Below, piece after piece: positions 40,100 to 53,493 of a DNA stretch of 64,000 bases (its first letter is position 1; each line of letters begins with the position of its first letter). Below the pieces are notes generated by a model. It was not told the DNA's origin. It did not search any database and saw nothing but the letters and a program-made list of their open reading frames with translations. The DNA comes from Kineococcus endophyticus (GTDB lineage Bacteria; Actinomycetota; Actinomycetes; Actinomycetales; Kineococcaceae). The translations under genes and the position numbers were made by a program. Location of the stretch: the NCBI RefSeq assembly GCF_040796495.1, contig NZ_JBFNQN010000006.1:1-64000 (forward strand). The letters run 5' to 3'.

Positions 40100-41401
40100 G
40101 TGACACCGGCAGCCGCCGAAGCCAGCACCGAGTCGACCCCCGCCAGCCCCGAGAGCCCCCGCCGCACCGGCAGCACGTTCGCCGCCCTGCGCGTCCGCAA
40201 CTTCCGCATCTACGCCACCGGTCAGGCCTTCGCGAACACCGGTGTCTGGGTGCAGAACATCGCCCTCGACTGGCTGACCCTCGAACTCACCGGCTCCCCG
40301 GCGGCCGTCGGCATCGCGATGGCGCTGCAGTTCCTGCCGATCCTGCTGTTCGGCATGCACGGCGGTATGATCGCCGACCGCTACCCCAAGCGGACCATCC
40401 TGCTGATCACGCAGTTGTGCAGCGCCTCCGTCGCCACGACGCTCGCCGTCCTCACGATCTCCGGCCACATCACGGTCGGCGCGATCTACGCGATGGCCCT
40501 CGTCGGCGGTTTCGTCGTCGCCCTCGACAACCCCACCCGGCAGTCCTTCGTCGGCGAGGTCGTCCCCGCGCAGTACGTCCGCAACGCGATCGCCCTCAAC
40601 GCGGCCGTGTTCCAGACGACGCGCCTCGTCGGCCCCGCCGTCTCGAGCATCCTCATCGGGACGGTCGGCTCCGGGTGGGCGTTCGCCGTGAACGCGCTGC
40701 TGTACGTCGGGCCCACCATCACCCTCGCCTCGATGCGGACGGCGGAACTGCACCGCACCACGCCGCTGCCGCGCGAGAAGGGCCAGTTGCGTTCGGCCCT
40801 GCGCTACGTCCGCGACCGGCCGCACGTCGGCTGGACCATCGCCCTCGTCGGCGTCTTCGGCACCTTCGGGCTGAACTTCCCCGTCGTGCTCACCGCGATG
40901 GCGTCCGAGACCTTCCACGCCGGCGCCGGCATGTACGGGACGTTCAACATCGTCATCGCGGTGGGGTCGATCGCGGGGGCCCTCATCGCCGGCGGCCGCA
41001 GCCACTCCCGGCTGAGGCTCATCCTCCTGCTCGGCGCGGCCTTCGGTGCGGCGCAGACCCTCGCCGCCTTCGCACCGAACCTCGAGACGTTCACCGTCGT
41101 CCTCGTCCTCATGGGCGTGACGAACCTCGCGTTCCAGGCGATCGCGAACAGCTCCGTCCAGCTCTGGGTCGACCCGGAGTACCGCGGCCGCGTCATGGGG
41201 CTCTACGTGCTGGTGTTCATGGGCGGCACGCCCATCGGCGGCCCGATCATCGGCTGGATCACCGAGCACGTCGGCGTCCGCGCCGGGATGGCGGTGTGCG
41301 GGATCGTGCCGCTCGTCGCGGCCGTGGCCCTCGCCGCGGTCCTCGCGGCACAACCGGCCCTGGCGCGACGACGCCAGGGCGCGGCGGTGCTCGCGGGCTG
41401 A
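40100..41401 (+). CDS. MFS transporter (EntS-like)
   Basis: A 433-residue transporter with about 12 membrane segments, preceded by a 30-residue polar N terminus. The block RVRNFRIYATGQAFANTGVWVQNIALDWL and the loop GMIADRYPKRTILL match the EntS/MFS_3 group of exporters. The start is GTG at 40100 with GAGAGG upstream. The gene ends 3 bases before the ThrRS-like gene in tail-to-tail orientation, with a palindrome spanning both stops. Export of a small molecule is likely; its identity is not visible. Confidence 0.88.
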   Translation: MTPAAAEASTESTPASPESPRRTGSTFAALRVRNFRIYATGQAFANTGVWVQNIALDWLTLELTGSPAAVGIAMALQFLPILLFGMHGGMIADRYPKRTILLITQLCSASVATTLAVLTISGHITVGAIYAMALVGGFVVALDNPTRQSFVGEVVPAQYVRNAIALNAAVFQTTRLVGPAVSSILIGTVGSGWAFAVNALLYVGPTITLASMRTAELHRTTPLPREKGQLRSALRYVRDRPHVGWTIALVGVFGTFGLNFPVVLTAMASETFHAGAGMYGTFNIVIAVGSIAGALIAGGRSHSRLRLILLLGAAFGAAQTLAAFAPNLETFTVVLVLMGVTNLAFQAIANSSVQLWVDPEYRGRVMGLYVLVFMGGTPIGGPIIGWITEHVGVRAGMAVCGIVPLVAAVALAAVLAAQPALARRRQGAAVLAG

Positions 41402-41412
41402 CGTCAGCCCGC
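41393..41412. terminator. Bidirectional terminator over two stop codons
   Basis: GCGGGCTG (41393-41400) and CAGCCCGC (41405-41412) pair perfectly around ACGT. Both the MFS stop (41399-41401) and the ThrRS-like stop (41404-41406) fall inside the palindrome, so one sequence serves both genes. Confidence 0.7.
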
Positions 41413-42639
41413 CCGGCGGCCGACCGCCTCCCGGGCCGCGAGGTCGGCGCGGAGGCGGTCGACGGCCTCGGCCACCCGGACCCGCCGGCCGCGGGTCCCG
41501 CGTTCGGCGAGGTCGACCTCGTCCGCGGCGACCTCGGCGTCCCCCACCACGGCGACCCACGGCACGCGCTCCTCGCGGGCGGCCCGCACCCGCCGTGGCA
41601 ACGACCCGTCGTGGTCGACCTCCACGCGGAGGCCGGGGAACCGCTGCGCGAGCCGCTCCGCGTGCTCGCCGTGCCGGTCCCCGCTGACGGGCAGCACGCG
41701 CAGCTGCACCGGGGACAACCAGGTCGGCAGCCAGCCGCCGTCCACCTCCAGGAGCATCGCCACCAGTCGTTCCGCCGACCCCAGCAGGCCGCGGTGGACC
41801 ACGACCGGCCGGTGGCGCTCGCCGTCGCGGCCCACGTACTCGAGCCCGAACCGTTCCGGCTGCACGTGGTCCACCTGGACGGTGGAGACGGTCTCCTCAC
41901 GGCCCGCGGCGTCGGTCACCTGGACGTCGACCTTCGGGCCGTAGAACGCGGCCTCGCCCGGTGCCTCGTCGAACGGGCGGTCGCCCAGGGCGTCCCGCAG
42001 CGACGACTCCGCCCGGCGCCAGGCGTCGTCGTCGCCGAGGTGCCCCTCTCCCGGACCCCGCAGCGAGAGCCGGAACCGGCTCACCGGCAGGCCCAGCAGC
42101 GCGTACGCCTGTTCGACGGTCTCGAGGGCCAGGCGCACCTCGTCGACGACCTGGTCCGGGCGGCAGAACGCGTGCGCGTCGTCGAGGCTGATCTGCCGCA
42201 CGCGGCGCAGCCCGGTGAGGACGCCGGACAGTTCGCTGCGGAACATGGCGCCGAGTTCGGCGTAGCGGACGGGCAGGTCCCGGTAGCTGTGCGGCCGGGC
42301 GGCGAACACCTGGGTGTGGTGCGGGCAGTTCGCCGGGCGGAGAACGTACTCCTCGTCCCCGACGCGCACGGGCGGGAACATGTCGGCGGAGAACTTCTGC
42401 CAGTGACCGGACCGCTCGAACAGGGCGCGCTTGCCGAGGACGGGGGTGTTGACCCGTCGACAACCGGTCGCCAGCGAGAGGTCGACGGCCAGGCGTTCGA
42501 GTTCACCGCGGACGACGCCACCTGCCGGCAGCCACAGCGGCAGGCCGGGGCCGACGAGGGGTGAGGTGTCGAACAGGCCGAGGTGGCGGCCGACGGACGA
42601 GTGGTCCGCAGGTGCGGGGTGGTTCGCGGGGTCGTTCAC
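41404..42639 (-). CDS. Short threonyl-tRNA synthetase paralogue (catalytic plus anticodon domains only)
   Basis: A 411-residue class II synthetase. All three zinc ligands of ThrRS are in place: Cys in LRPANCPHH, His in DDAHAFCRP and His in VVHRGLLGSAERL. The motif 2 arginine region VRYAELGAMFRSE is present, and a C-terminal anticodon-binding domain spans about 300-400. The N-terminal TGS and editing domains of normal bacterial ThrRS (about 640 residues) are absent, so the enzyme cannot clear mischarged Ser-tRNA itself. It is likely a second copy; the housekeeping thrS would be elsewhere. The start is GTG at 42639 with GGGAGG upstream, partly buried in a hairpin. A leader peptide with Thr codons and a terminator precede it. 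Confidence 0.88.
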   Translation of the reverse strand: MNDPANHPAPADHSSVGRHLGLFDTSPLVGPGLPLWLPAGGVVRGELERLAVDLSLATGCRRVNTPVLGKRALFERSGHWQKFSADMFPPVRVGDEEYVLRPANCPHHTQVFAARPHSYRDLPVRYAELGAMFRSELSGVLTGLRRVRQISLDDAHAFCRPDQVVDEVRLALETVEQAYALLGLPVSRFRLSLRGPGEGHLGDDDAWRRAESSLRDALGDRPFDEAPGEAAFYGPKVDVQVTDAAGREETVSTVQVDHVQPERFGLEYVGRDGERHRPVVVHRGLLGSAERLVAMLLEVDGGWLPTWLSPVQLRVLPVSGDRHGEHAERLAQRFPGLRVEVDHDGSLPRRVRAAREERVPWVAVVGDAEVAADEVDLAERGTRGRRVRVAEAVDRLRADLAAREAVGRRAG

Positions 42640-42647
42640 AGGGTTCC

Positions 42648-42673
42648 TCCCGGGTTCGTGGGGGTCCCCGGGA
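42648..42673 (-). promoter_or_regulatory. Hairpin sequestering the ThrRS ribosome-binding site
   Basis: On the reverse strand TCCCGGG (42673-42667) pairs with CCCGGGA (42654-42648). The second arm contains part of the GGGAGG Shine-Dalgarno sequence of the ThrRS-like gene. This may add translational control to the upstream attenuator. Confidence 0.4.
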
Positions 42674-42679
42674 ACGACG

Positions 42680-42708
42680 AGAGCCCCGGGGGTGACCCCC
42701 GGGGCTCT
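42680..42708 (-). terminator. Attenuator terminator upstream of the ThrRS-like gene
   Basis: A perfect 13-bp stem, AGAGCCCCGGGGG with CCCCCGGGGCTCT, is closed by a three-base loop. It begins 12 bases after the end of the Thr-rich leader peptide and ends 40 bases before the synthetase start. Its 5' arm on the reverse strand includes CCGGGGGT (42702-42695), which can alternatively pair with ACCTCCGG inside the leader (42746-42739). That is the arrangement needed for attenuation. It may also terminate the upstream hydrolase gene. Confidence 0.75.
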
Positions 42709-42720
42709 GCTGACGTCAGC

Positions 42721-42783
42721 TCAGCGCTGACGGCGACGCCGGAGGTGGACCGGCGTCGTCGTGCAGGACGGGCTGCTGTTCAC
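42721..42783 (-). CDS. Threonine leader peptide of the ThrRS-like gene (candidate)
   Basis: A 20-codon frame starts with GTG at 42783, overlapping the stop of the upstream hydrolase (GTGA). It reads VNSSPSC, then three consecutive Thr codons (ACG ACG ACG, 42762-42754), then PVHLRRRRQR and TGA. The RNA arm GACGCCGG (42757-42750), overlapping the Thr codons, pairs with CCGGCGTC (42742-42735). A ribosome stalled for lack of Thr-tRNA would free ACCTCCGG to pair with the terminator's first arm and allow readthrough into the synthetase gene. Geometry and content fit amino-acid attenuation as known for trp, leu and ilv leaders; function here is inferred. The ribosome-binding site is weak, so translation may depend on coupling. 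Confidence 0.55.
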   Translation of the reverse strand: MNSSPSCTTTPVHLRRRRQR

Positions 42784-43775
42784 CCGTCCACCGTGGCACC
42801 GTCGGTGCCGTCCTGTCGAGGAGTTTCCGCGGCGGCCGGGTGCAGGGCGCGGCGCAACGCGCTCACGCCGAGCTGGAACGACGTCCGCGTCACCGGGGCG
42901 TCGACGGCCATCTGGTAGCCGTGGAACGCGCCCGGGTAGACGTGCAGCTCGGTCGGGACGCCGGCCCGCACGAGCCGGCGCGCGTACTCGACGTCCTCCT
43001 CGAGGAAGAGGTCCAGCGCACCGACCTCGAGGAACGTGGGCGGCAGGCCGCTGAGGTCCTCGGCGCGCGCGGCGGCGGCGTACGGCGAGATGCCGGCCGA
43101 CCCGGGGTCGGTGCCGAGGTGGGCGCGCCAGCCGAACTCGTTGTACGTCGGCGTCCACACGAACTGCCCCGTCACCGGGTTCGGGTCGTCCGTGGTGACC
43201 GTGCGGTCGTCGAGCATCGGGTAGACGAGGAACTGCATCACGAGGGGCACCTCACCGCGGTCGCGCGCGAGCAGTGCGAGGCCTGCTGTCAGTCCTCCGC
43301 CCGCGCTGGCACCCGCGATCGCCAACCGCGACCGGTCGACGCCGAGGTCGGCGGCGTGCTCGTGGAACCACCGCAGCGCGGCGTAGCAGTCCTCGACGGG
43401 GCCCGGTGCGACGTTCTCCGGGGAGAGCCCGTAGTCCACCGAGACGACGACGGCGTCGAGCGCCAGGGCGTAGGTGCCCGACAGCGCGCGGTCGGCGTCC
43501 GGGCTGCCGAAGACGTACCCGCCGCCGTGGATCCACAGCACCCCGGGGGCGTCCGGTGCGAGGGAAGCGGGCCGGTGCACGAGGACCCGCACCGGCTCCT
43601 TCCCCTCCCGGGGGACGAAGACCTCCTCCTCGCTCACCCCGTCCGGCAACGGAGGGGTCGGCGCTGCGGCCATCGCCGCGCGCACCGCACCGAGCCCTTC
43701 CGGGGTGAGGTCCAAGGGCGGCAGCAGGGCGAGGGCGCCGGCGATGTCGGGGTCGATGAGGTGCGTGGTGTCCAC
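42780..43775 (-). CDS. Alpha/beta hydrolase, hormone-sensitive-lipase-type esterase
   Basis: A 331-residue esterase with the HSL oxyanion motif LWIHGGGYVFGS, nucleophile Ser in IAGASAGGGLTAG, an acid residue in FLEVGALDLFLEEDVEYA, and the catalytic His in YPGAFHGYQM. The GTG at 43775 (VDTTHLIDPDI) with CGGAG upstream is preferred over a longer frame to 43823. It should hydrolyse small acyl esters in the cytoplasm. Its stop overlaps the start of the Thr leader peptide. Confidence 0.9.
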   Translation of the reverse strand: MDTTHLIDPDIAGALALLPPLDLTPEGLGAVRAAMAAAPTPPLPDGVSEEEVFVPREGKEPVRVLVHRPASLAPDAPGVLWIHGGGYVFGSPDADRALSGTYALALDAVVVSVDYGLSPENVAPGPVEDCYAALRWFHEHAADLGVDRSRLAIAGASAGGGLTAGLALLARDRGEVPLVMQFLVYPMLDDRTVTTDDPNPVTGQFVWTPTYNEFGWRAHLGTDPGSAGISPYAAAARAEDLSGLPPTFLEVGALDLFLEEDVEYARRLVRAGVPTELHVYPGAFHGYQMAVDAPVTRTSFQLGVSALRRALHPAAAETPRQDGTDGATVDG

Positions 43776-51324: not shown

Positions 51325-52347
51325 TCACAGCGGCGGCGCCACGAGCGCCTCGTACGCGTCGAGTTCGGCGAGGAACCCCTCCTTCACGTCGTCGGAGGCC
51401 CAGGAGATGTCGATGGCGTTGCGCTGCAGCTGGATGAGTTCGTCCGGTCCGAGCGACGCCGCGCGCGTCAGGGCGACGAGGTTCTCCGTGACGTACCCGC
51501 CGAAGTAGGCCGGGTCGTCGGAGTTCACCGTCACCTTCACCCCGCGGCGCAGCAGGTCGGCGATGACGGGGGCCTTGCTGTCGTCGGTGACGAAGGAGTT
51601 CGAGACCGGGCAGCAGGTCAGGCCGGTCCCGCGCTCCTGCAGCAGCGCCAGCAGCCGGGGGTCCTCCACGACGTTCGTGCCGTGGTCGATGCGGTCCACC
51701 GCGATGTCCTCCAGCGCCTGCCGCAGGTGCTCGACGGTGTCCTCCTGGTCGATGTCGCAGTGCACCGTCACCTTGAACCCGGCCTCGCGGGCGCGGGCGA
51801 ACAGGTGGGCGAACTTGGCCGGCGGGTTCCCGCGCTCGTCGGAGTCCAGGCCGATGCCGACGACCTGCTCGCGGAACTCCAGCATCCGCTCCACGACGTC
51901 CTCGGCGCTCTCGACGGGCAGGTCGCGGACGATGCAGAGGATCAACCCGGCGCTCAGCCCCAGCTCGCGCTGCGCCTCTTCCACGGCGTCGTGGTACCCG
52001 AGGACGACGTCCTCGAACGCCACCCCGCGCGCCACGTGGACCTGCGGGTCGAAGAACACCTCGGCGTGCCGGACGTTCTGCGCGGCGGCCTTGCGGAAGT
52101 AGGCCATCGCGAGGTCGCGGAAGTCCGCGCGCGTCACCAGCACGTCCATCGCGGGGTAGTAGACGGCCAGGAAGGACGCCAGGGAGTCGAAGACGTAGGT
52201 GGCCCGCACCTCCTCGACCGTGCTCTGGCCGATGTCGACGCCGTTGCGGCGGGCCAGTTCGAGCTTGAGCTCCGGTTCGAGGGTCCCCTCGAGGTGCAGG
52301 TGCAGCTCGACCTTGGGCAGGGCGGCGGTGAAGGCGTCGAGGTCCAT
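51325..52347 (-). CDS. Adenosine/adenine deaminase-family protein with altered catalytic motif
   Basis: A 340-residue amidohydrolase. The metal site VELHLHLEGTLEP, the block RHAEVFFDPQVH, and the second metal/active-site blocks RIDHGTN and VTVNSDDPAYFGGYV are those of the adenosine deaminase family, closer to the adenine-deaminase (AAH1-like) branch. The catalytic HAGE motif is replaced by HCDIDQ near residue 196, so the general-acid Glu is missing at its usual place. A neighbouring Asp may substitute, or the substrate may differ. The start is ATG at 52347. Confidence 0.85.
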   Translation of the reverse strand: MDLDAFTAALPKVELHLHLEGTLEPELKLELARRNGVDIGQSTVEEVRATYVFDSLASFLAVYYPAMDVLVTRADFRDLAMAYFRKAAAQNVRHAEVFFDPQVHVARGVAFEDVVLGYHDAVEEAQRELGLSAGLILCIVRDLPVESAEDVVERMLEFREQVVGIGLDSDERGNPPAKFAHLFARAREAGFKVTVHCDIDQEDTVEHLRQALEDIAVDRIDHGTNVVEDPRLLALLQERGTGLTCCPVSNSFVTDDSKAPVIADLLRRGVKVTVNSDDPAYFGGYVTENLVALTRAASLGPDELIQLQRNAIDISWASDDVKEGFLAELDAYEALVAPPL

Positions 52348-52397
52348 GCCGCGATCCTGCCCCCTCACGGGACCCCGCCGTCGTACCGGTCCGGCTG

Positions 52398-52418
52398 GCA
52401 ACACGACCGCAACACGAC
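52398..52418. repeat. Tandem 11-bp near-repeat in the deaminase/hydrolase intergenic region
   Basis: GCAACACGACC and GCAACACGACG follow each other directly (10 of 11 positions equal) between the divergent deaminase and hydrolase genes. One turn of helix separates the copies, so this could bind a regulator. Nothing further supports it. Confidence 0.3.
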
Positions 52419-52500
52419 GGCCACCGGGACGAAACCCACCGGGGTCGCCCGCGGGGCACGCTGGGAGACCGCACGACGCTGCGAGACCGAGGAGTCCGAC

Positions 52501-53493
52501 GTGCCGACGTCCCCCGTGCTCGACCCCCGTCTCACCGACGTGGAGGCCGCCCGGCTCCACGCCGCCCGCGCGCTCGTCGACGCCTCGCTCACCCCGCGGC
52601 ACCTCGCCGGGCTGGCCGTCGCCCGCGCCCGCGCCCGCCGCCCCGCCCCGTCCACTCCCGATGTCGGGGTGCGCACCCAGGACCTCGCCGTCCGCGGCGC
52701 CGCCGGGCCGCGGCCGGCGCGGCTCTACGTCCCCGACGAGCTGGAGCAGTCGGCCACCGTCCTCTTCCTGCACGGCGGCGGCTGGGCCCTCGGCGACCTC
52801 GACACCGACGACCTGCTCTGCCGGCGCCTCGCCGGGACGGCGGGCGTCACCGTCCTGAGCCTGGCCTACCGCCTGGCCCCCGAGCACCCGTGGCCCGCGG
52901 CGCTCGACGACGCCGCGGCCGTGCTCGAGGCGCTCGCGGCGGGCCGGGTGCCCGGGCTCACGGGGCCGCTCGTCGTGGCCGGGCACGGCGCGGGCGGTCA
53001 GCTGGCCGCCGTCCTGGCCCTGCGCGCCCGCACGGGGCGGGTGCCGCCGCTGGCCCACGCGCTGCTGTTCTGCCCGTTGCTCGACGACGCCCTCGACCGC
53101 GACTCCCACCGCCGCTACGGCGACGGTCTCGGGCTGTCCGTGGACGACCTCGCGTGGTTCTGGCGGATGTACGTCCCCGACCGCGCGACCCGGCACCGCA
53201 GCGACGTCGCACCCGCCCGGGCGCGCGAGCTCGCCGGTTGCGCCCCCACCACGGTCGTCGTCGCGGGCGCCGACCCGGTCCGGGACGAGGGCCTCGCCTT
53301 CGCGGCGGCGCTGCGGGCCGCGGGGGTCGACGCCCGGGAGGTGCTCGTGGACGGCGTGCCGCACGACGTGCTCGCGACACCCGGCCCGGCGGCCGGGGAA
53401 CGGGCGGTGCGGACGGCCGCGGAGCACCTGACCGCGACGCTGTCCGCCGGCCGGGTGCTGGACCTGCGCGAGGGCGTACCGCAGCTGCGCTGA
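52501..53493 (+). CDS. HSL-family alpha/beta hydrolase lacking the nucleophilic serine
   Basis: A 330-residue protein with the HSL oxyanion motif LFLHGGGWALGDLD and the fold blocks AYRLAPEHPWPAALDD. The nucleophile elbow, normally GDSAGG, reads VAGHGAGGQLAA (residues about 159-170), with Gly at 163 where the catalytic Ser should be. The acid region VVAGADPVRDEG and the His in VDGVPHDVL remain. It may be a non-catalytic relative or use another residue. The start is GTG at 52501 with GGAG upstream. Confidence 0.8.
   Translation: MPTSPVLDPRLTDVEAARLHAARALVDASLTPRHLAGLAVARARARRPAPSTPDVGVRTQDLAVRGAAGPRPARLYVPDELEQSATVLFLHGGGWALGDLDTDDLLCRRLAGTAGVTVLSLAYRLAPEHPWPAALDDAAAVLEALAAGRVPGLTGPLVVAGHGAGGQLAAVLALRARTGRVPPLAHALLFCPLLDDALDRDSHRRYGDGLGLSVDDLAWFWRMYVPDRATRHRSDVAPARARELAGCAPTTVVVAGADPVRDEGLAFAAALRAAGVDAREVLVDGVPHDVLATPGPAAGERAVRTAAEHLTATLSAGRVLDLREGVPQLR

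Follow-up and report, generated by a model that had tools for sequence, protein, structure and literature searches.

A short threonyl-tRNA synthetase (ThrRS) gene of Kineococcus endophyticus is preceded by a leader that, to judge from sequence and conservation, is very probably a Thr-sensing leader-peptide switch over a spare synthetase without an editing region. The gene lies on the minus strand of the stretch of DNA analysed here (64,000 nucleotides, referred to as the window). A first-pass annotation, which had proposed threonine attenuation at this place, regarded the arrangement as unusual for an actinobacterium, but among the loci examined a Thr leader is the rule for the short ThrRS paralogue, and thrL of Streptomyces lividans had already been listed.

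Organization of the locus

The first-pass annotation had described a 20-codon frame with three consecutive ACG codons, an arm over these codons that pairs downstream, an alternative pairing with one G-U, and a ThrRS start 40 bases beyond a hairpin. All four were recovered. The frame is on the minus strand (42783-42721, with the ACGs at 42762-42754), CGACGCCGG pairs with CCGGCGTCG, ACCTCCGG can pair with CCGGGGGT, and the ThrRS start codon is the GTG at 42639, 40 nt 3' of the T hairpin. The claimed 13-bp terminator is present as a hairpin at that place (42708-42696 pairs with 42692-42680, minus strand), but as a terminator it is less convincing, since the U-tract is poor in most species and the window tail after T, CTCGTCGTTCCC, is weak. 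The features of the locus are as follows.

42822..42827, minus strand: GAAACT, WblC/WhiB7-like box immediately 5' of the -35, with GAAA 32 nt upstream of the -10
42814..42819, minus strand: -35-like TCGACA, 18-bp spacer (read from the sequence)
42790..42795, minus strand: -10-like CACGGT, ending 6 nt 5' of the leader GTG (comparison with 108 leaders)
42721..42783, minus strand: leader ORF, 20 codons plus stop, probably leaderless (sequence and conservation)
42754..42762, minus strand: Thr run ACG ACG ACG (ACG run in 108 leaders)
42750..42758, minus strand: P1 5' arm CGACGCCGG (sequence, fold, alignment)
42734..42742, minus strand: P1 3' arm CCGGCGTCG (sequence, fold, alignment)
42739..42746, minus strand: antiterminator (AT) 5' strand ACCTCCGG (conserved, almost invariant)
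42695..42702, minus strand: AT 3' strand CCGGGGGT, in the T 5' arm and loop, one G-U with ACCTCCGG
42680..42708, minus strand: T hairpin, 13 bp, terminator-like, weak U-tract (fold; covariation in relatives)
42694..42700, minus strand: P4 5' strand GGGGGUC, end of the T 5' arm plus loop (duplex tests, alignment)
42660..42666, minus strand: P4 3' strand GACCCCC, 3' of T (duplex tests, alignment)
42667..42674, minus strand: P5 5' arm UUCCCGGG, anti-Shine-Dalgarno (predicted duplex, locus L001)
42647..42654, minus strand: P5 3' arm CCCGGGAG, over most of the Shine-Dalgarno sequence (predicted duplex, locus L001)
42646..42651, minus strand: Shine-Dalgarno sequence GGGAGG of the ThrRS gene (read from the sequence)
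41404..42639, minus strand: short ThrRS of 411 aa, limited to the class II catalytic core and the anticodon-binding domain (PF00587, PF03129, TIGR00418)

The leader peptide, MNSSPSCTTTPVHLRRRRQR, is opened by the GTG at 42783, and its stop codon ends at 42721. Upstream, an alpha/beta hydrolase gene ends on the leader start, the two codons overlapping in GTGA (42780-42783), and the promoter lies within the 3' end of that gene. The 161-nt region folds at -100.4 kcal/mol, compared to -74.2 kcal/mol for shuffled sequences (z -6.2; none of 200 shuffles was as good).

On the other side, an MFS transporter gene (40100-41401, plus strand) is convergent with the ThrRS gene. Inspection of ORF translations by eye placed an MFS transporter next to the short ThrRS gene also in the Kineococcus loci L004 and L028, and a different ORF in its place in L005 and L006. 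A functional link between the transporter and the short ThrRS is possible.

The short ThrRS paralogue

The product of the window gene matched PF00587, PF03129 and the ThrRS equivalog model TIGR00418 (407.9 bits; cut-off 383.65). It is devoid of the N-terminal editing region, and its alignment begins at residue 239-241 of full-length ThrRS. A second ThrRS-like gene with a long open frame is present in the source genome and is 39% identical over residues 11-403. We take this long-frame ThrRS to be the canonical copy and the short window ThrRS, therefore, to be the second one, in line with the paralogue named in the first-pass annotation.

For a possible borrelidin- or obafluorin-resistant (ObaO-like) enzyme, which would be marked by replacement of E. 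coli Gly463 or Leu489, these two positions were compared. The glycine of the (F/I)YGPK motif (E. coli Gly463) is retained in 72 of 72 short ThrRS. At the position of E. coli Leu489, Q was found in 64 of the 72 and also in 26 of 32 matches treated as canonical, and since most of the latter share the change, it is not diagnostic of drug resistance. The matches L074-L094 from a phylum sample, which have long open frames and 43-47% identity, were counted as canonical and entered only the residue comparison.

One genome carries two equal-scoring short ThrRS copies, oppositely oriented in a stretch of 26 kb close to the end of a contig (G1080:C1:26991-28190 and 51556-52755), perhaps as a terminal inverted repeat.

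In Anabaena, an editing-defective second ThrRS (T2) is described as mischarging Ser and as almost undetectable before stress (PMC4787780). By analogy, strict control of the short ThrRS would make sense because it is without the editing region.

Conservation of the Thr-run leader

Short ThrRS was found in 5 of 11 Kineococcus genomes. Leader, P1, T and promoter hexamers are present in each of the five, with variation in the spacing and in the N-terminus of the peptide. The Kineococcus leaders read TTTPV followed by a mostly basic tail. The gene 5' of the leader is not conserved in the genus according to ORF translations inspected by eye, by which a hydrolase-like ORF was also seen about half a kilobase upstream in L005.

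Beyond the genus (E <= 1e-92), 15 of the 396 genomes searched in the order gave a match, compared with 63 of 394 in the class and 82 of 150 in a sample of one family. In a phylum sample, 58 of 296 genomes matched, mostly with canonical-looking ThrRS. The family is labelled Streptomycetaceae-like, a name chosen in part because its leaders resemble the thrL published for S. lividans. Part only of the family-sample matches (n = 83) entered the locus set; G661 was left out, as its contig starts 48 nt upstream. The set comprised 112 examined loci, with L143 (contig end) and L146 and L147 (full-length ThrRS) set aside.

The first-pass annotation had staked its proposal on relatives that keep the synthetase also keeping the Thr run and both alternative stems. 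The run was retained in all 109 short-ThrRS loci with a readable upstream region, 108 of which have at least three Thr codons and one (L155) two. As a control, the regions upstream of 11 canonical Kineococcus thrS genes were inspected (one gene per genome; 450 nt, placed by an assumed N-terminal extension of 720 nt and not by annotated starts), and a Thr-run leader ORF was found in 0 of 11. A typical leader peptide is MTTTPESVPAR. Pro follows the first three Thr in 105 of 108 leaders, and no other residues are kept as strictly as the Thr run and this Pro; the length of the leader and its N-terminal residues vary among loci.

Codon usage in the run was also scored. ACG occupies codons 1, 2 and 3 in 103, 108 and 108 of the 108 leaders, the other five having ACC at codon 1; in six genes of the window, ACG accounts for 74 of 149 Thr codons. 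P1 involves the last ACG only in most species, and the near-absolute use of ACG in the run exceeds what P1 pairing needs there. One possibility is that the strict ACG usage reflects the sensing of a single isoacceptor, tRNA-Thr(CGU).

Genome-wide searches and decayed copies

An RNA covariance model (R1), trained on 46 short-ThrRS loci, was run over whole genomes, where it scored 150 candidate places per genome in Kineococcus and, with stricter filters, 55 in Streptomycetaceae-like genomes. The 61 Streptomycetaceae-like genomes yielded 36 matches with E < 1e-11, and the next best match had an E-value of 9.7e-6. Each of the 33 short ThrRS matches in the 61 genomes has an R1 match directly upstream; the short ThrRS match in G1021 contains a TGA. 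The three other R1 matches (G1070, G1039 and G1030) lie at decayed loci where there is no short ThrRS match. What is left there is a stretch covering ThrRS residues 12-108, a frameshifted copy that extends no further than residue 213, or no ThrRS at all in the roughly 1.9 kb that follow. These are natural relics of gene loss, and with the gene disrupted or absent the leader region decays too. G1070 retains the Thr run and has an altered P1 3' arm, in G1039 the leader part is replaced, and in G1030 the Thr run and stop of the leader have decayed while T remains. In this last orphan relic (L222, G1030:C1:6010341-6010468), T and a 10-bp P4, GGGGCCGGUG:CACCGGCCCC, are still complementary.

In the 11 Kineococcus genomes, R1 ranks the five short ThrRS genes first, with the lowest of them (40.3 bits) barely above the next match (37.4 bits, in G009). 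The latter looks by eye like a tRNA gene plus hairpin and was rejected, as was a second match in G1059 (40.2 bits), which appears by eye to be without a leader. Among the top-scoring candidate places in the 11 Kineococcus and 61 Streptomycetaceae-like genomes, no other gene was convincingly placed under the element. The pattern ACNACNACGCCGG..CCGG alone is unspecific; it occurs in 7 to 14 copies per Kineococcus genome, with similar counts in genomes without a short ThrRS.

Probable leaderless start and promoter class

A -10-like hexamer is located 6-7 nt 5' of an in-frame start in 108 of 108 leaders, as TANNNT in 103 and as CANNNT in the 5 from Kineococcus. Shuffled controls contained TANNNT within 4-8 nt of the start in 4% of cases; the CANNNT of Kineococcus was found by a looser pattern that carries no shuffle control. 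According to the published S. coelicolor study, transcription from WblC promoters starts mostly 7 or 8 bp past the -10, and this is where the start codons of the leaders begin. Likewise, thrL of S. lividans was reported to be leaderless by 5'-end RNA-seq (PMC8079986). The leader is, then, probably translated from the 5' end of the transcript. The first-pass annotation had counted a weak ribosome-binding site of the leader as a caveat. The site is indeed weak, but this is to be expected because the -10-like box ends 6 nt 5' of the GTG and the leader is probably leaderless.

The published WblC promoter consensus consists of GAAAWY 3 bp upstream of the -35, a spacer of 16-19 bp, and TANNNT. GAAA was found 30-36 nt upstream of the -10 in 61 of 108 leaders, compared to 4.4% of shuffles, and the full GAAAWY in 32 of 108, compared to 0.6% of shuffles. 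Of the five Kineococcus leaders, four have GAAA and none has the full motif; the -35 reads TCGACR in four and TGGACG in the fifth (by eye). The window promoter (GAAACT, 2 bp, 18-bp spacer, CACGGT) is thus WblC-like yet off consensus: GAAACT departs from GAAAWY at the W position and is separated from the -35 by 2 bp, not 3. The gene thrS2 is named in the table of WblC-activated genes of S. coelicolor, and we infer that it is the short paralogue. For Kineococcus, WblC control of the element is only a suggestion, because the box in the window is GAAACT.

Covariation and pairing of the helices

The helices were analyzed in a MAFFT alignment (A2) of 46 diverse loci. The diverse set comprised 55 of the 108 loci (identity < 0.86, stop-to-start distance up to 105 nt), and A2 left out L040, L069, L071, L072, L073, L119, L121, L125 and L156, which include the most divergent ones. 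In P4 and P1, some rows of A2, Kineococcus included, appear misaligned, so that the counts would come out too low. In addition, the energies of cognate and cross-species duplexes were compared by an alignment-free method in 52 of the 55 diverse loci (without L035, L119 and L121). Six loci with a mis-called T (L035, L041, L119, L121, L129 and L137) were dropped from the pairing, folding and U-tract counts, which refer to 102 loci. The permutations ignore relatedness, and the slid controls preserve it.

In A2, 90.2% of the cells of T are paired and 8 pairs have changed on both sides, with slid controls reaching at most 70.3%. For P4, the corresponding values are 84.2% and 7 two-sided changes, with slid controls at 46-55% (maximum 55.2%); its covariation score was above all 500 shuffles, and its count of two-sided changes was reached by 34 of the 500. 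P5 is paired in 68.7% of the cells with 10 two-sided changes and slid controls at 30-66%, the shift by +3 being nearly equal (65.8%); 10 of 500 shuffles reached its covariation score. The alternative stems expected by the first-pass annotation are kept as well, with 91.6% of the cells paired for P1 and 88.8% for AT (still 81.6% when slid by -1). Both stems are near-invariant in the 46 loci, so this pairing comes without covariation support.

The comparison of cognate with cross-species energies (52 loci) gave z values of -15.3 for T, which served as the positive control, -11.3 for P4, -8.6 for P5 and -2.5 for AT, and of 0.0, 0.7 and -0.7 for three negative-control pairings. In the duplex test with 102 loci, the values were -13.9 for P4 and -11.2 for P5, and AT gave -2.5 with 75 distinct loci. 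When the downstream segment was shuffled, P4 became weaker in 100 of 102 loci. With the test confined to the five Kineococcus loci, 266 of 5000 permutations did as well as the real P4, which is thus only suggestive, and 1959 of 5000 did as well as P5, which is unsupported. P4 reads GGGGGUC:GACCCCC in the window, GGGGAAC:GUUCCCC in K. vitellinus, GGGGAGA:UCUCCCC in L030, GGCGAACG:CGUUCGCC in L150 and GGGCGGGUG:CACCCGCCC in L142; GGCGAGUG:CACUCGCC is a further example. The loop sequences of T differ between lineages.

In a subgroup (L103, L109, L111, L116, L117 and L157), the ribosome-binding site GUGGAG replaces GAGGAG, and the upstream arm of P5 is changed to match, giving CCACUCG:CGAGUGG in several of these loci.

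The P1 3' arm is common to P1 and AT, and the 5' arm and loop of T are used by AT, T and P4. P4 and P5 overlap by at least 3 nt in 89 of 102 loci, in the segment after T; in the window they abut, with no overlap. Because the helices share or abut strands, {P1, T, P5} and {AT, P4} are predicted to be alternative to each other.

At least 5 T within the 9 nt counted from the last two bases of the T stem were found in 10 of 102 loci, a count that ignores U paired deeper in the stem. Since a U-tract is present in so few loci, intrinsic termination at T is doubtful in most species. With leader-peptide attenuation in the broad sense the element shares a leader ORF with cognate codons (109/109) and mutually exclusive helices, one of which overlaps the control codons. 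Trp-type attenuation in the strict sense includes an intrinsic terminator with a U-tract, and given the weak tail in the window the element is better described as working like a classical transcription attenuator than as being one.

Folding predictions for exposure of the Shine-Dalgarno sequence

At the stage before the Shine-Dalgarno sequence is made, the mean predicted pair probability of P4 was 0.83 with AT on the T 5' arm and 0.14 if T can form. The mean probability that the Shine-Dalgarno sequence is unpaired was 0.28 with T and 0.47 with P4 forced, and it was higher with P4 in 90 of 102 loci. When equilibrium folds were computed without forcing P4, an increase in exposure above 0.2 was seen in only 7 of 102 loci. 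Masking hardly exceeded that found with shuffled upstream sequence (0.28 versus 0.33 unpaired, lower in 58 of 102). In the window, the pair probability of P4 was 0.43, and forcing P4 costs 13.3 kcal/mol; in three of the five Kineococcus loci (L005, L006 and L007), forced P4 raises the exposure by less than 0.1. By these predictions, the window itself is a weak case for a P4 relay.

Alternative explanations

In a GC-rich genome, ACG triplets and GC-rich hairpins might come together by chance, and both the abundance of ACG among the Thr codons of the window genes and the repeated occurrence of ACNACNACGCCGG..CCGG in Kineococcus genomes would suit this reading. It is refuted by conservation, and its probability is practically nil: the Thr-run leader is found in 109/109 loci against 0/11 canonical controls, and the strongest genome-wide R1 matches are at short ThrRS loci or their relics. 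Because it is conserved across species, the leader is more than a product of chance. A structured 5' region of a ThrRS gene also brings to mind autoregulation, in which T, P4 and P5 would form a tRNA-like operator bound by ThrRS; E. coli ThrRS binds its own mRNA in this way. Autoregulation would leave the conserved in-frame Thr-run ORF at the 5' end of the transcript unexplained, and the T loop sequences vary among lineages; we regard it as very improbable.

Two further readings keep the leader ORF. Classical transcription attenuation alone, with T as an intrinsic terminator and P4 and P5 without a regulatory role, would fit the trp-type layout of P1, AT and T, the strength and covariation of T and the U-rich tails of the few species that have them, and GC-rich actinobacterial terminators can be without U-tracts. 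Against it, P4 and P5 covary well above the negative controls, U-tracts are mostly absent, and the S. lividans authors describe termination at thrL as "not clear" (PMC8079986), so that we find this account rather unlikely as it stands. The leader might otherwise be a general sensor of translation stress like the wblC/whiB7 uORF, where any stalled ribosome turns the gene on. The WblC-like promoter boxes speak for such a role, as do the place of thrS2 within the S. coelicolor WblC regulon and the uORF-mediated attenuation of wblC itself that the S. coelicolor WblC study reports. The Thr run and the next Pro are, however, kept most strictly while leader length and N-terminal residues vary, and the amino acid of the leader matches the downstream gene, which makes an unspecific sensor improbable.

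Proposed mechanism

For the Thr-sensing switch that we favour, the helices suggest the following course. When Thr-tRNA is plentiful, the ribosome would run to the leader stop and cover the P1 3' arm, and T would form. A ribosome at the leader stop codon would also cover the AT strand. With T formed, the P4 strand would be locked in T and P5 would hide the Shine-Dalgarno sequence, leaving the gene off through termination, lack of initiation, or both. When Thr-tRNA is scarce, owing to starvation or to an inhibited housekeeping ThrRS, the ribosome would stall on the Thr codons and cover the P1 5' arm, so that AT forms and T is prevented. P4 would then form before the Shine-Dalgarno sequence is transcribed, P5 would be disfavoured, and the gene would be on. 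The element would thus alternate between the two helix sets {P1, T, P5} and {AT, P4}, and a WblC/WhiB7-type promoter may provide transcription under translation stress.

Translation is possibly an output as well, because the U-tract is poor and a further pair of helices leads to the Shine-Dalgarno sequence; we give this P4/P5 branch about even odds. The full five-helix relay is the more demanding proposal. Here, one stall decision at the ACG codons would control, via P1/AT, T/P4 and P5, both readthrough and exposure of the Shine-Dalgarno sequence; the leader would be a sensor of tRNA-Thr(CGU), and, under a translation-stress promoter, the whole would lock a potentially Ser-mischarging enzyme twice over. 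Its chances appear to us to be slightly worse than even.

Relation to known systems

The attenuator of an auxiliary, indolmycin-resistant TrpRS gene in S. coelicolor, from the work of Vecchione and Sello in 2010, is reportedly ribosome-mediated. In it, as in the proposed switch, a second, inducible synthetase is reportedly controlled by ribosomes through codons for its own amino acid; it differs in using Trp instead of Thr and in being transcriptional. We know of no P4/P5 relay in that attenuator. T-boxes, for their part, sense tRNA by direct binding. The translational T-box of actinobacterial ileS is similar to our element in that a hairpin masks the Shine-Dalgarno sequence of a synthetase gene and an alternative pairing opens it (PMC1262725), but it operates without a leader peptide. 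The same survey (Seliverstov et al. 2005) predicted candidate trpS and leuS attenuators in Streptomyces, which likewise place a leader peptide, an antiterminator and a terminator before an actinobacterial tRNA synthetase gene; for threonine operons, the survey states that it saw no conserved RNA structure upstream, and Kineococcus radiotolerans is among the genomes it lists.

The closest published precedent is from S. lividans TK24, where thrL was listed from RNA-seq data upstream of thrS (SLIV_19410), a threonine-tRNA ligase gene (PMC8079986). It is leaderless, as the present leaders probably are; it has 18 codons (MKRVRPFLETTPGFVPAR), two Thr before Pro, and the VPAR* end that recurs in many of the present leaders, and from this leader we infer that SLIV_19410 is the short paralogue. 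The entry differs in that it concerns a single species, leaves termination "not clear" and, in its accessible text, gives no antiterminator, P4, P5, link to a short-ThrRS clade or conservation. The Anabaena T2 enzyme is alike as a stress-induced second ThrRS without effective editing; it differs in being controlled by the zinc repressor Zur, and the accessible text of PMC4787780 describes no leader switch.

A T-box or another Rfam family was rejected, as the window element and 15 related loci had no match at gathering score. A relaxed scan of 201 bases returned 17 sub-threshold matches on both strands; those with the lowest E-values, Guanidine-II (23.4 bits; cut-off 32) and gntR-DTE (24.2 bits; cut-off 63.6), were taken as chance matches to GC-rich hairpins. 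Among the matches listed in a search of open-licence PMC titles and abstract starts, no report of a widespread element or of the P4/P5 helices was found.

With these results, a one-line entry for one Streptomyces strain becomes a conserved regulatory RNA with a defined target in many actinobacterial lineages. With P4 and P5 covarying, the idea that a single leader peptide gates transcription and translation alike can be tested directly. The element also suggests a reason for the tight lock on a ThrRS that lacks the editing region, and a route by which a housekeeping ThrRS might be replaced when poisoned or overloaded.
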